Source of the DNA: a virus
Virus record (IMG/VR): IMGVR_UViG_3300005613_000417
Coordinates: 1 to 23,638 of that record
Length of the DNA stretch: 23,638 nucleotides
Direction: 5' to 3' (one strand)
Under the pieces are notes generated by a model. It made no database searches. It was given only the letters and a program-made list of their open reading frames with translations, and was not told where the DNA came from. Shown one piece after another: positions 9,790-17,327 of this stretch (positions are counted from its first letter, which is position 1; every line of letters begins with the position of its first letter). The position numbers and the translations under genes are program-made.

Positions 9790-10476
9790 TTAAAATTTTA
9801 GGTCGAAGTCAAAATTTACATTGAAATCAAAATCAAATCCTGTAGGATTATTTTGATTTTGGGTTATTTTTTTTTCGTTTGTCAAAATTTCATTTAAACA
9901 ATCTTCTGCATCTCTTCCTTTATCCAATAATCCTTTACCCCTTACACTGAATAAGTCATCAACAAATGAATTGAGCATATCAAATACAATAGGCTCATTG
10001 CTTATATCAAAATTTTCAGACCTTATATTTTCATTCAAATTCATGGACGATAGTATCACTATTTTCCATTCATCATTTTCAATTAATACAAATTTTGAAT
10101 GATTTTTTGTAGTCCTAATTTGCTCCTCATCAAATACCTCCAGCAAATGCGTAGCATATTGCTTTAACCTTGTTCCAAATGAATAATCAATAACAATTCG
10201 CACATCGGTCATTAAACCACTATTGCGCAATTCATTAAATGCGCCTATATCGTAAAATCCCGCCGACCATGTTGATAGTGTTACTTTTGCAGCTCCAGTT
10301 ATTTTTAAAATTTCTGAAATCAAACTAATTAATGAAAATGCGCCATTCGTTAAACCAACAATGCGCGTTTCTTTATCAAATCCATCTAAAATGCCCTTTG
10401 CCACTATATCGCCTGATTTTTTCGCCAATACCTTTTTCTTTCTCGGTATTTTTTTATAAATAGGCTTGTCTTTCAT
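9790..10476 (-). CDS. PLD-like (HKD) domain protein
   Basis: The 228-residue protein carries one phospholipase D-like motif: HSKFVLIEN at about 135-143 followed by ILSSMNLNENIRSENFDI, matching H-x-K...S-S-x-N of the HKD superfamily. The Asp of HxKxxxxD is not clearly present, so activity may be altered. The N-terminal half (VTLSTWSAGFYDIGAF) reads like the first strands of the same fold. One HKD implies a homodimer if active. Members include nucleases and lipid hydrolases, so the substrate is unknown. The tail alternates Phe and Asp (GFDFDFNVNFDFDLKF), which is odd. It immediately precedes terS and may assist packaging, or be a host-interaction enzyme. Confidence 0.7.
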   Translation of the reverse strand: MKDKPIYKKIPRKKKVLAKKSGDIVAKGILDGFDKETRIVGLTNGAFSLISLISEILKITGAAKVTLSTWSAGFYDIGAFNELRNSGLMTDVRIVIDYSFGTRLKQYATHLLEVFDEEQIRTTKNHSKFVLIENDEWKIVILSSMNLNENIRSENFDISNEPIVFDMLNSFVDDLFSVRGKGLLDKGRDAEDCLNEILTNEKKITQNQNNPTGFDFDFNVNFDFDLKF

Positions 10477-11290: not shown

Positions 11291-11595
11291 ATTTTTTTTA
11301 ACGTATCATAATTTTTAACAACTCGCAATCCGTCAATGTAGTGCTTCTTCATGTCGTCCGTTTCGTAATGCCGCGCCCATTTTTCGGCAAAGTCTATAAA
11401 GTCATCTGGATTCCAACGCTGGCCGCGTGTGTCGGTGATTATACCTTCTCTTATAAATTCGTAAAGCTCCCTTTGATTAATCCAATATTTTCCGTCGTGA
11501 AATAACCAAATGAACGGCTCCTTACTGATGGCCTCGCCAAGTATAACCACTCGTTTAGTTTTTTTATCGCGTCGGTAGAATCGGATAAAACTCAT
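11287..11595 (-). CDS. Hypothetical phage protein
   Basis: The ATG at 11595 overlaps the stop of the 56-residue gene as ATGA, so I prefer it to the upstream ATG at 11691, which lies inside that gene. The 102-residue product starts MSFIRFYRRDKKTKRVVILG, is rich in aromatic and charged residues and contains DGKYWINQRELYEFIREGII and RWNPDDFIDFAEKWARHYE. Both segments look like amphipathic helices around a Trp-rich core. No family recognised. Coupled at its own stop to DUF3310 by another ATGA. Confidence 0.7.
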   Translation of the reverse strand: MSFIRFYRRDKKTKRVVILGEAISKEPFIWLFHDGKYWINQRELYEFIREGIITDTRGQRWNPDDFIDFAEKWARHYETDDMKKHYIDGLRVVKNYDTLKKI

Positions 11596-11762: not shown

Positions 11763-11765
11763 TGT

Positions 11766-11818
11766 GTTAGTTTTTACCAACACTAACCCCATTTTCAGGA
11801 GTTAGTGCTGGTTTTTTT
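11766..11818 (-). promoter_or_regulatory. Competing hairpins upstream of a small gene (possible RNA switch)
   Basis: Stem A pairs 11776-11787 with 11801-11812 (12 bp, one G-U wobble, 13-base loop). Stem B pairs 11766-11771 with 11782-11787 (6 bp, 10-base loop). They share 11782-11787, so only one can form. In minus-strand mRNA stem B ends four bases before the ATG at 11762 and would hinder it, while stem A leaves it free. On the plus strand stem A is followed by six T and looks like a terminator, but there is no plus-strand gene. Role inferred only. Confidence 0.4.
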
Positions 11819-11885
11819 ACTCAAAAAATTCTTCAAACATTATTAAAAAAATGCAAATAATGATTAATGCTGCTGCTATTTTCAT
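11817..11885 (-). CDS. 22-residue hydrophobic peptide
   Basis: ATG 11885 to TAA 11817 encodes MKIAAALIIICIFLIMFEEF plus FE. Nearly the whole peptide is one hydrophobic helix with an acidic end, fitting a membrane-embedded micropeptide or a signal-anchor. Its start overlaps the stop of the 93-residue gene exactly as ATGA, the coupling used by neighbouring genes, which is the main reason to believe in it. Its stop touches the start of the hairpin region. Function unknown; it could also be a leader peptide for the hairpins downstream. Confidence 0.4.
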   Translation of the reverse strand: MKIAAALIIICIFLIMFEEFFE

Positions 11886-12163
11886 AATTTTTCATTTTCA
11901 GGATATATCCTTACCTCCGTCATATCGATGTTGGTGTATTTATTAACAATTGCGTTTATTTCCTTTCCAAACGCTTCTACCATGTTCTCTCTGTCCACTT
12001 GCTCGATATTCTCATTCTTTTGCAATTCCCACATAAATCGAAGAGCTGTGTATGAAAATATCCATGTGGTCATCAATAAGTGTTTTTTTTCAAATTCAGG
12101 AACGTCGCTGTACTCGAGAATCGTGTCAAATAAATACTCTATCTTTTTGTTTAATTCTCGCAT
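11882..12163 (-). CDS. Hypothetical helical phage protein
   Basis: The 93-residue product begins MRELNKKIEYLFDTILEYSD and appears mostly helical, with a central aromatic stretch (TTWIFSYTALRFMWELQKN) and an acidic C-terminal half. It is not hydrophobic enough for a membrane protein. Its start overlaps the end of the 48-residue gene by 13 bases, and its stop overlaps the micropeptide start. No family recognised. Confidence 0.65.
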   Translation of the reverse strand: MRELNKKIEYLFDTILEYSDVPEFEKKHLLMTTWIFSYTALRFMWELQKNENIEQVDRENMVEAFGKEINAIVNKYTNIDMTEVRIYPENEKL

Positions 12164-12316: not shown

Positions 12317-13066
12317 TTAATTATTAGGTGGTGTTTTTGTATAAATTAAACCACTCTTCCACGTTCCATTACCCCAGATTCCATTCTCCCACATTCCATT
12401 CTCCCAGGTTCCATTCTTCCACGTTCCATTCTCCCACGTTCCATTCTCCCATGTTCCATCCTCCCACGTTCCATTCTCCCAGGTTCCATTCTTCCACGTT
12501 CCATTCTCCCACGTTCCATTCTCCCATGTTCCATTCTCCCATATTCCTTCCCACCAGATTCCACTATTCCACGTTCCATTCTTCCACGTTCCATTACCCC
12601 AGATTCCATCCCACCACCTTCCATTCTCCCACGTTCCATTCTCCCATGTTCCATTCTCCCATATTCCTTCCCACCATATTCCTTCCCACCAGATTCCACT
12701 CTTCCACGTTCCATTCTTCCACGTTCCATTACCCCAGATTCCATTCTCCCACGTTCCACTCTCCCACGTTCCATTCTCCCAGATTCCATTCTCCCAGATT
12801 CCATTCTCCCAGATTCCATTCTCCCACATTCCATCCTCCCAGATTCCACTCTCCCATGTTCCATCCCACCACCTTCCATTCTCCCAGATTCCATTCTCCC
12901 AGATTCCTTCCCACCAGATTCCACTCTCCCAAACAATCCAAGCCCCTTTAAAAGATACTTTAGCATTATTTGTTTCGGCCTTGCAAAACCAAGGAAAATC
13001 TTTTTCTAACTTCTCGATAGTTAACCCTTTAAGCAAGGTTAAGTTTTTATGTTTTCTGTAGTCCAT
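12317..13066 (-). CDS. W-x-x-G-x pentapeptide repeat protein
   Basis: The 249-residue protein has a 45-residue head (start MDYRKHKNLTLLKGLTIEKL; a short basic/aromatic domain ending FKGAWIV) and then 39 tandem pentapeptides at residues 46-240, mostly WENGT, WENGI, WKNGT, WESGI, WWEGI or WWDGI. Trp and Gly are invariant. A nine-residue tail ends it. Regular Trp/Gly spacing suggests a solenoid with stacked tryptophans, formally analogous to pentapeptide-repeat or MORN proteins but distinct in consensus. It follows thyX by three bases. Function unknown: target mimicry, surface binding or a structural rod are all open. Minus is preferred because the head reads naturally and the plus strand gives only H-S-P-x-F repeats. 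Confidence 0.8.
   Translation of the reverse strand: MDYRKHKNLTLLKGLTIEKLEKDFPWFCKAETNNAKVSFKGAWIVWESGIWWEGIWENGIWENGRWWDGTWESGIWEDGMWENGIWENGIWENGIWENGTWESGTWENGIWGNGTWKNGTWKSGIWWEGIWWEGIWENGTWENGTWENGRWWDGIWGNGTWKNGTWNSGIWWEGIWENGTWENGTWENGTWKNGTWENGTWEDGTWENGTWENGTWKNGTWENGMWENGIWGNGTWKSGLIYTKTPPNN
12347..12931 (-). repeat. 39-copy 15-bp in-frame minisatellite
   Basis: Thirty-nine 15-bp units without interruption encode the W-x-x-G-x pentads. The common unit on the plus strand is TTCCATTCTCCCACG. Codons for Trp, Asn (AAT) and the fourth Gly (GGA) hardly vary, while the second, third and fifth codons change mostly non-synonymously. Units 14-16 and 23-25 (WGNGT, WKNGT, W[K/N]SGI) recur as blocks, indicating segmental duplication. 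The tract is strongly pyrimidine-rich on the plus strand. Confidence 0.95.
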
Positions 13067-13069
13067 TTT

Positions 13070-13684
13070 TTAAAGTTTAAATGCTTTGATAGTATGTTCA
13101 AATGGATTATTCGGCAAGTTCTTCACCTGCTCCAGCATCGTCTGTGCTATTTCCCTAATTTCTTTTTGTGCGTGTTGGTTGTTTCTGAGTTTTTGGAAGT
13201 GGTAGAAACTTCTGAAGTTGAACATCACATCCATTGTGATTTGCGAATTGAACATCTTAAAGTACCTCGCTGATTCCTTCGCTCGCTTGCGTCCAAGTAG
13301 TGGTTCAAGCTGCGAAATAGCATCGTGATACAATTGGTTGGTCAACTCGCTGTACCTCATTAATTTACTTCGCCAACGTTCAGGCCAATCGGTCGGTATG
13401 TAAAATCTATCCTCTTTCAATTCCTTGTATCTCGCTGATTCGGCATTTATGGAAGTGCCTATCCTGTGCTTCAATAGGTGAATATGGCTTGCTTGGTCGC
13501 AGGTAACAAGGAAATGTAATGATGATTTTTCAAACGGCGTGTGGTGTCCATTTTCAGCAAGCATTTTGAGAAGTTCAGGCATCCTGTGCTTTTTCTTCTC
13601 ATAGTCCCTTGAAGTAGATGTCCACGCGCTCAATGCGTGGCTTTCATCTCCGCCATAGTGTCCTAATAGTTGTACTGTGTTCAT
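13070..13684 (-). CDS. thyX: FAD-dependent thymidylate synthase ThyX
   Basis: The 204-residue enzyme would methylate dUMP to dTMP using methylene-tetrahydrofolate, NADPH and FAD, as a homotetramer. The ThyX signature R-H-R-x(7)-S-x-R appears as KHRIGTSINAESARY (72-86), with Lys in place of the first Arg. Also seen are HHTPFEK (47-53) and the helical C-terminal block RNNQHAQKEIR (167-177). Length is normal. An AAACTATG start context precedes it, shared with several replication genes. It follows dut by 14 bases, which makes a natural pair: Dut makes dUMP and ThyX converts it. Active despite the Arg-to-Lys change is likely but unproven. Confidence 0.93.
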   Translation of the reverse strand: MNTVQLLGHYGGDESHALSAWTSTSRDYEKKKHRMPELLKMLAENGHHTPFEKSSLHFLVTCDQASHIHLLKHRIGTSINAESARYKELKEDRFYIPTDWPERWRSKLMRYSELTNQLYHDAISQLEPLLGRKRAKESARYFKMFNSQITMDVMFNFRSFYHFQKLRNNQHAQKEIREIAQTMLEQVKNLPNNPFEHTIKAFKL

Positions 13685-15520: not shown

Positions 15521-16441
15521 TTATTGATTTTTTTTGAATTTTTTTATCCATTCTGGAATGATACCGGCATTGATAGCTGAAAGCAAGCCATTTTCATGCG
15601 TTTTAAGCGAAGGAAAATCTTTACTGGATATATCTATCAACTTTTGTTTTAAATCCTCGTGGAAGGCTTCCAGTTGCCTCAGGATTGATTTTTCACAATA
15701 CATCTCAGCTTCGCAAAATTCAGCAAGGGTATTATATCTGTATTTTGGGGTAAATTTTTGCTCCTCCTCCCATTTTTTTTCCAGTTCATTTTTTAGCTGG
15801 ATAAGTGATTCCGGCATCTTTGCGTATTGCTTCGCTTCTTCCTGCTCTTTTTGATCTTTCTTCCTTTCCCTCAACCTTTCCGCTTCGGCAGCTTCCAGAC
15901 GCTTAATGTTGTACTTCTCAAACCATATCATTACCGTTTGAACATCCATCCTATCATAACTAATCCCAAACTTACCCCCGATACCCATTTTTAAGCAAAG
16001 GTAAACATCCGTAAATTTTAGGTGGTAGTAGTCGTCAAGGATTAATTCACAAATCATTTCTACCATGTCATCACTCATTCCCTTATTGACTGCTTGAAAT
16101 TGACTAAATTTCATCAATTGCCAGCTTAGGGCTAAATAGGTGTTTGATTCGCCGTGATATTTTCGATATGCAGCCAAGCTCGGTATATCGCTGTTTATTG
16201 ATTCAATAATTTTATTGACCTTAATTTTTTTGATTTCATCCAAGCCAAACGGCATCACTTGGTTAGCCTGTTGCAAATTAAAATTCCTTTCTTCAATTAG
16301 TGTCTGAATCCGCAATTCGTAGTCGCTCTGCTCTTGCTCTCTCCATTTCCATCCGTTCGCGTTCCTTCCATTTTGCATAATTGCGCATAAGTCCTTCTTC
16401 GCTAAATGTATGCCCTTTTGATTTTTTTCTTGATTTTGCAT
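15521..16441 (-). CDS. DUF6633-like protein of the replication module
   Basis: Up to 306 residues from ATG 16441. The core at about 70-185 (SLAAYRKYHG, DDMVEMICELILDDYYHLK, DVYLCLKMGIGGKFG, YDRMDVQTVMIWFEKY) matches the shape of DUF6633-type Bacteroidota proteins, which often sit beside replication initiators in mobile elements, so a replication accessory role is inferred. Residues about 187-215 are a charged helix (RLRERKKDQKEQEEAK) likely to be coiled coil. Starting at 16441 overlaps the initiator by 149 bases. Internal starts at ATG 16378 or 16255 would reduce this, but 16441 has the best A-rich leader. Confidence 0.75.
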   Translation of the reverse strand: MQNQEKNQKGIHLAKKDLCAIMQNGRNANGWKWREQEQSDYELRIQTLIEERNFNLQQANQVMPFGLDEIKKIKVNKIIESINSDIPSLAAYRKYHGESNTYLALSWQLMKFSQFQAVNKGMSDDMVEMICELILDDYYHLKFTDVYLCLKMGIGGKFGISYDRMDVQTVMIWFEKYNIKRLEAAEAERLRERKKDQKEQEEAKQYAKMPESLIQLKNELEKKWEEEQKFTPKYRYNTLAEFCEAEMYCEKSILRQLEAFHEDLKQKLIDISSKDFPSLKTHENGLLSAINAGIIPEWIKKFKKNQ

Positions 16442-17327
16442 GGTTTACAATTTTTTGATAATTAGAATTTAGCCCGGCAGGGCTGTAATGATTATTATAA
16501 TAAAATCCGTCTGATAGGTTTGGCAGGCGGTTTAAAAAAGTACCTAAGTAATTAATCAATTTTTCATTTGTCAATTCCGAGCCGGCATTGTGTGCTTCTT
16601 CAGTTAACTTCTTCATCAGCCCTTCGAGATTTTTGTGCTGCTTACCATCCCAAATGAATTTTGAACGAAAATTGAACTCGTAGTACTCATCAAATACCTC
16701 CTTCGCCTCCTTCCTCAAATTATCTAAATTTTCATTCAAAAACGCGAAAATTTCATTTTCGCCATTATTATAATCTTGTTTATTTAATTTTTTTACTATA
16801 TTCTTATTAGTATTATTCTTATTAATGCGGCTGTGTTTTCGGCTCGCCTGATTAGGGCTATCCGTATGCTCGTCCGCCCCATCTTCGGCAGCCCTATCTT
16901 CGGCAGCCCTATCTTCGGCGGCCCTATCTTCGGCGGCCGTGTTTTCATCCGCCAAAGACTTTGGCTGCACTATTTCATTATCATTAACATCCCCTTCAAC
17001 CATTTCAGAAGTTGAATAATATACTTTTTCAATCTCAGGTGGCTTTATTTCCTCAATAAATTCAGGATGTTTAATTATCCATTTATAACCCAAAAATTTA
17101 CCAGTATCAAAGACTTTTTGACGTTTTAAGTATCCTGCTTTTTCAAGTTCGGTACATCCTTGTTGCACAAATCCTTTTGAAACTCTTAATTCATTTGCTA
17201 TATTTTGAACATACCACTTCCAGCCCTTAATTTTTGAAATCAAATGAATATAAACAAGTTGACCTTTGTATGTTAATCTTGCGTCAGCAAAAATGGAATG
17301 GGGAACTTTTATAAATCCACTATTCAT
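16293..17327 (-). CDS. Replication initiator-like winged-helix protein
   Basis: The 344-residue protein starts MNSGFIKVPHSIFADARLTY, the pattern of phage replisome organisers, with a winged helix at about 18-90 (WYVQNIANELRVSKGFVQQG, LEKAGYLKRQ). A low-complexity linker (about 95-185) includes four AAEDR/AAEDG repeats (131-150) and an Asn/Lys-rich run. The C-terminal domain has FYYNNHYSP and a basic helical end (KWKERERMEMERARAERL). This order, DNA-binding head, linker and C-terminal loading domain, parallels lambda O and similar initiators that recruit the helicase. It is four bases after the small winged-helix gene. The linker DNA holds repeats and an AT-rich tract that could be the origin. 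Confidence 0.78.
   Translation of the reverse strand: MNSGFIKVPHSIFADARLTYKGQLVYIHLISKIKGWKWYVQNIANELRVSKGFVQQGCTELEKAGYLKRQKVFDTGKFLGYKWIIKHPEFIEEIKPPEIEKVYYSTSEMVEGDVNDNEIVQPKSLADENTAAEDRAAEDRAAEDRAAEDGADEHTDSPNQASRKHSRINKNNTNKNIVKKLNKQDYNNGENEIFAFLNENLDNLRKEAKEVFDEYYEFNFRSKFIWDGKQHKNLEGLMKKLTEEAHNAGSELTNEKLINYLGTFLNRLPNLSDGFYYNNHYSPAGLNSNYQKIVNHAKSRKKSKGHTFSEEGLMRNYAKWKERERMEMERARAERLRIADSDTN
16764..16940. other. Candidate replication origin inside the initiator gene
   Basis: Four 15-bp tandem repeats (16881-16940) lie about 55 bases from a very AT-rich tract (16764-16826, six G or C in 63 bases). An iteron array next to an AT-rich unwinding element inside the initiator coding sequence is the layout of the lambda origin within gene O. 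Alternatively both are simply low-complexity linker coding sequence. Inference only. Confidence 0.35.
16881..16940 (-). repeat. Four tandem 15-bp repeats (AAEDR linker)
   Basis: The plus-strand unit is ATCTTCGGCAGCCCT. The first two copies are identical, and the third and fourth differ by a G in GGCGG and, in the last, a final GT. They encode AAEDR/AAEDG in the initiator linker. The unit is much more GC-rich than its surroundings. Confidence 0.9.

Follow-up and report, generated by a model that had tools for sequence, protein, structure and literature searches.

Genomic context of the W-array gene

The DNA analysed here (the window, 23 638 nt in full) is a 23.6-kb IMG/VR virus record, i.e. 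a Bacteroidota-type phage fragment whose terminase is closest to those of Bacteroides and Flavobacterium phages (around 40 % identity). The ATG of its W-array gene (Table 1) is located 3 bases downstream of the stop codon of thyX, which lies immediately upstream and in the same direction, with a dUTPase gene farther upstream. As read from its sequence, the W-array protein appears to carry no obvious signal peptide, which together with the nucleotide-metabolism operon points to a cytoplasmic role during infection.

Table 1. Coordinates of the W-array gene, its parts and the adjacent thyX gene in the window
Feature	Position	Strand	Remarks
249-aa protein: cap, 39 WxxGx units and short tail	12317..13066	(-)	Open frame
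N-terminal cap, 45 residues, MDYRKHKNLTLLKGLTIEKLEKDFPWFCKAETNNAKVSFKGAWIV; predicted helix, then strand	12932..13066	(-)	Core conserved in relatives
Array of 39 uninterrupted W-x-x-G-x units, 15 bp each	12347..12931	(-)	Residues 46-240
C-terminal tail IYTKTPPNN (nine residues) and stop, outside the array	12317..12346	(-)	
thyX-type thymidylate synthase (context, outside the system)	13070..13684	(-)	Pfam Thy1, 1.3e-32

Scans of the window protein against Pfam, PHROGs and NCBIfam returned no matching family, and a single-sequence PDB search returned nothing. No Pfam pentapeptide family was reached at E ≤1 by this protein or by the relatives tested, nor was a MORN Pfam match seen in any member tested. 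The first-pass annotation of this DNA, which had judged the consensus to be neither that of the classical pentapeptide repeat nor that of MORN, is supported by these results, and no confident match to a described family with known function was found.

Sequence and history of the repeat array

The array covers exactly 585 bp (from 12931 down to 12347), with W at position 1 and G at position 4 of the unit, and was recovered independently by Tandem Repeats Finder (15-bp period, 38.7 copies, score 594), confirming the 39 uninterrupted units with invariant Trp and Gly that had been noticed initially. At the DNA level there are 19 distinct units, corresponding to 16 distinct peptides. Near identity, as attributed to the DNA units, is true of the fixed codons only; at positions 2, 3 and 5 the amino acids vary as claimed. 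Regarding the suggested scarcity of synonymous change in the fixed codons, the claim stands for Gly, encoded by GGA in 38 of 39 units versus 80 of the 318 Gly codons in 18 other genes of the window, an excess which indicates recent homogenisation and not codon bias, while the invariance of Trp is uninformative at the DNA level because this residue has a single codon.

The block duplications are real, i.e. units 18-20 are identical at the DNA level to units 26-28, units 28-30 to units 33-35 and units 14-15 to units 23-24, which puts the two copies of the three-unit blocks 8 and 5 units apart and those of the two-unit block 9 units apart. Duplication lengths that are multiples of three units were looked for and not seen. 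With a mean pairwise unit identity of 0.79, the window array ranks fifth highest among 105 arrays compared. Growth by tandem duplication with homogenisation, as originally proposed, is supported, also by the non-homogenised array of a close relative (see below), and the window array has become near perfect only recently. The accompanying proposal of selection on the exposed residues is not supported: pN/pS between the units of the window array is 0.95 over all positions and 1.03 at the variable ones, with no sign of positive selection.

A second 15-bp tandem array is present at 16876-16938 (4.2 copies, 95 % identical), where it encodes AEDRA repeats within a 344-aa ORF (16293-17327, minus strand). 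Short in-frame minisatellites in this phage are therefore not unique to the W-array gene.

A family of capped arrays, mainly in phages

Viral relatives were collected by a scan with the window protein (36 loci) and by a scan with three arrays (68 more). The resulting set held 105 distinct arrays of at least 10 units (103 after removal of near-copies), and a later scan added 15 further arrays of at least 8 units. With around 120 distinct, non-redundant W arrays, nearly all on phage contigs and some in paralogue clusters, the protein is not the one-off that it had seemed. All collected arrays are open in frame, and no homologous locus with a broken frame was encountered. In many relatives, a cap core, W[LF]xxA....Ax[VI], followed by a hydrophobic strand directly precedes the first unit. 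We define the WxxGx phage array family by this cap and subsequent W/F-x-x-G-x units in one frame, a definition that includes the window protein. A loose cap pattern matches 65 of the 103 arrays, some of these being false matches. The cap also occurs in short proteins with around seven units and in phage records of 635 and 735 kb, and some W arrays lie inside giant proteins of huge phages. The fused heads of other W arrays (SGGLGGSCMR, GSWCIAY and others) gave no firm family, with one weak amidoligase match for the head of locus L145.

Some phages carry the arrays in clusters, with seven or more within around 4 kb of contig L159 (2498-6600), and with around ten large ORFs of this kind at 27-51 kb of a phage of 136 kb (G417). 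In both clusters the tandem paralogues have caps that are almost identical and arrays that differ considerably, which suggests rapid duplication and array replacement.

Cultured phages with a W array are rare. One of them is Pseudomonas phage PspYZU05, whose gp54, annotated as PIP5K 5-like, shares the cap with the window protein and has 22 WxxGx units, but belongs to the Straboviridae and differs in its surface residues and an extra C-terminal domain. Among PHROGs, only the unnamed phrog_14105 was matched, by two relatives (gp54, 5e-5; L006, 3e-4) and in its C-terminal part. This group of unknown function differs from the window protein, which does not reach it, in having a DUF7666 domain in front of its W-array-like region. 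The DUF7666 part is matched by PspYZU05 gp55 (4e-11), a DUF7666 protein encoded directly upstream of the W-array gene of this phage (L123, 4283-5893). Judging from these matches, phrog_14105 appears to unite the gp55-type DUF7666 and the W-array parts in one protein.

Only 5 of 296 Bacteroidota genomes matched, so the family looks mainly viral. While a genome scan with query P0001 (the window protein) gave no match, a scan with a close alignment yielded ten loci, three of them capped (Emticicia, Bdellovibrionales and Bacteroidales MAGs); most of the remaining loci were short capless W arrays that look like compositional matches and were set aside. The Bdellovibrionales protein (L128, 3575-4255) has a lipoprotein-like N-terminus and a proline/lysine-rich linker ahead of its cap and W array, and is a possible exported cellular version. 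Three further candidates were rejected: a plasmid tblastn match in Bordetella (H9) and a match in phage Amjad_SA (H8) are both classical ANLxG pentapeptide-repeat proteins, i.e. cross-matches to the query, and a match in Scytonema (H12) lies on the strand opposite to an annotated pentapeptide gene.

Mobility of the gene

In the closest relative of the window (L039), with a terminase 98 % identical by residue, the W-array protein has the same head (MNYKKHKNLTLL) followed by 18 contiguous heterogeneous units, versus 39 in the window, and its gene lies two genes from the site of the window's copy, in an insertion of 811 bp that maps between positions 11298 and 11300 of the window. Furthermore, a W array adjoins thyX at none of 80 other Thy1 loci. 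Therefore, the W-array gene is a movable accessory gene. Mobility, the shared N-terminal cap and the co-variation at three units per coil described below go beyond the first-pass annotation.

Other differences between the two phages include extra DNA methyltransferase-like ORFs in L039 (175-982) separating genes that almost adjoin each other in the window (11763-11895), a gene beside the window terminase that resembles a PHROG endonuclease (9790-10476; phrog_16945, 5e-54) and is absent from L039, and the small-terminase-like gene.

Co-variation indicates three units per coil

If the strands of neighbouring coils are stacked, the lag at which outward residues are coupled should give the number of units per coil. 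In a set of 96 non-redundant heterogeneous arrays with 2194 units in all, the charge at unit position 2 was anti-correlated at lag 3 (r=-0.166, z=-7.3; bootstrap over loci, -0.211 to -0.111), with 528 opposite-charge pairs observed versus 410 expected, while nothing comparable was seen at lags 2 and 4-10. The coupling agrees between both halves of the data. Positive coupling at lag 3 was found for aromatic residues at positions 2 and 5, for Phe replacing Trp and for beta-branched residues at position 5. Moreover, the four strongest couplings of an unbiased scan (5→2 at lag 1, 2→2 at lag 3, 5→2 at lag 4 and 5→5 at lag 3) are those expected if the strand is [5', W, 2] and a coil has three units. 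Since tandem duplication raises identity at a given lag, it cannot alone produce a negative charge correlation. While four units per coil had been our initial expectation, the co-variation pointed to three instead.

The lag-3 test, fixed before it was run, was repeated on 15 new arrays (217 units), many of them from contigs already sampled, so that the phages are not fully independent. Charge (z=-3.3) and Phe (+2.4) again showed coupling, as did aromatic residues at position 2 (+2.6), which had not been listed beforehand, whereas the pairing of beta-branched residues at position 5 was not replicated in these arrays. Applied to 45 classical PF00805 arrays as a control, the same method recovered lag 4 (Phe +6.4, charge -3.4). 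In the window array alone the correlation at lag 3 (r=-0.13) is not significant, the array being too uniform.

Predicted structures

AlphaFold predicts many short strands for the window protein (model 1; pLDDT 70 overall, 86-93 over residues 161-240), with helices at residues 17-23 and 25-28 and a strand at 31-40 in the cap. The model of an orthologue (model 2) reached a pLDDT of 82.7, around 92 over most of residues 1-140. The best VIA matches of model 1 are four-sided pentapeptide-repeat proteins, led by HetL (Z 11.8, rmsd 3.5) with AlbG, EfsQnr and MfpA close behind, while Foldseek gave no match to this model below E 0.1. Model 2 matches PspYZU05 gp54 in BFVD (E 1.2e-7), has no good PDB match and, unlike model 1, does not match the right-handed parallel beta-helix fold; its VIA matches to left-handed helices (Z 9-10, but rmsd 11) indicate a possible hand mismatch only. 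The two models thus agree on a beta-rich repetitive rod, in support of a beta-solenoid, but not on its number of sides.

Proposed fold and function

We infer that the protein is a capped parallel beta-solenoid with a Trp core and three pentapeptides per coil, likely serving as a binding or spacer rod, a reading which we consider probable and which retains the W-centred solenoid suggested in the first-pass annotation. Each pentapeptide, taken as G-x-W-x-x, would form one side of the solenoid, with Trp pointing inward, Gly leaving space for the Trp and x-N-G forming the corner. At three units (15 residues) per coil, the 39 units would make around 13 coils, i.e. a rod of around 6 nm. The surface would consist of the outward-facing residues at unit positions 2, 3 and 5, where opposite charges of adjacent coils would lie on top of each other, and tandem duplication would lengthen, shorten and homogenise the array.

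As a stand-alone cytoplasmic protein encoded beside nucleotide-metabolism genes, the rod most likely provides a rigid binding surface for a host or phage protein, or acts as a spacer. With modest confidence, our guess is that it is most likely used to bind such a protein along its length. The occurrence of fused heads, stand-alone copies and copies in giant phage proteins suggests a general-purpose rod. More tentatively, the arrays could constitute a new class of beta-solenoid, i.e. Trp-cored and three-sided with 15-residue coils, found in a large unnamed phage family that spreads, forms tandem paralogues, changes length as a minisatellite and binds many host targets. The coil is the feature by which solenoid repeat proteins are classified, and here sequence alone indicates three pentapeptides per turn versus four in the known family. 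If correct, this would add a compact Trp-core solenoid and name a widespread family of phage proteins whose current annotation is hypothetical or PIP5K-like, with a unit short and perfectly regular enough to be an attractive scaffold.

Alternative readings and known repeat proteins

In register and shape, the W array works like a pentapeptide-repeat protein. Like the PF00805 proteins HetL, AlbG, EfsQnr and MfpA, it consists of uninterrupted tandem pentapeptides whose inward residues are large at i and small at i-2, its 39 units exceed the family's minimum of eight contiguous pentapeptides, and a parallel solenoid is predicted. A divergent member with the four-sided right-handed fold and 20 residues per coil would explain this register and the VIA matches of model 1, as well as a weak but ungapped and in-register profile match to the luminal domain of SV2C, which is a pentapeptide-repeat domain. 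We nevertheless consider it unlikely: the inward residues, G at i-2 and W at i in 39 of 39 units, both depart from the published consensus, which has (A/C/S/V/T/L/I) and (L/F) at these positions (PMC8145042), the window protein stays below the Pfam score cut-off, and co-variation speaks against four pentapeptides per coil, as the test that detects lag 4 in PF00805 does not find it in the WxxGx arrays. Because consensus, Pfam score and coil size all disagree, we do not file the protein with the pentapeptide-repeat family.

It also seems unlikely that the product is mainly a structural spacer, or a nearly neutral gene driven by its minisatellite and lacking a specific target. A pN/pS of around 1 at exposed positions, very variable array lengths and the related arrays inside giant proteins of huge phages would fit such a gene, but the cap is conserved, all arrays retain the frame, W and G, and the cross-coil charge pairing is maintained, which indicates that the fold is under selection.

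Quite improbable is a tandem tryptophan zipper or minimal MORN sheet, i.e. an antiparallel beta-meander with an NG turn per unit and Trp on one face. The motif WENGxW, repeated in the window array, does occur in the designed hairpin trpzip2 (SWTWENGKWTWK), whose NG turn is of type I', and both the PIP5K-like annotation of a relative and a weak gapped profile match to MORN4 (E 0.007) suggest a MORN-type resemblance. Strands of a meander touch one unit apart, so that same-position coupling at lag 3 would be unexplained, and the 23-residue MORN repeat differs from the W-array period of five.

Least probable is an acidic DNA-mimicking rod directed against gyrase or a defence protein. The pentapeptide-repeat proteins MfpA and Qnr have been described as DNA mimics (PMC8145042), and the window protein is acidic (pI 4.4; array net charge around -23), but per 100 residues the net charge of the arrays varies between -17.8 and +10.9 and the array of the close relative L039 differs in composition. 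The mimicry proposed earlier is therefore not supported as a family trait, and the family lacks the conserved, strongly acidic surface expected of a mimic of the Qnr/MfpA type.

The Knotted Solenoids of Brevundimonas are three-sided, as proposed for the W array, and were reported to be closest to pentapeptide-repeat proteins, but have a knotted chain and no mention of a W-x-x-G unit (PMC13123833). For the W array, we infer a Trp-cored three-sided rod that is a sister architecture to the four-sided pentapeptide-repeat proteins and not a member of them. A triangular beta-solenoid with 15-residue coils is also found in the spruce budworm antifreeze protein, which is left-handed and has Thr faces. 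The tryptophan repeat of NANOG has around ten units and is not known to have an invariant Gly. Like the W array, this repeat carries Trp at every fifth residue; NANOG itself is largely disordered, and its prion-like C-terminal domain assembles (PMC5446312, PMC9106587).
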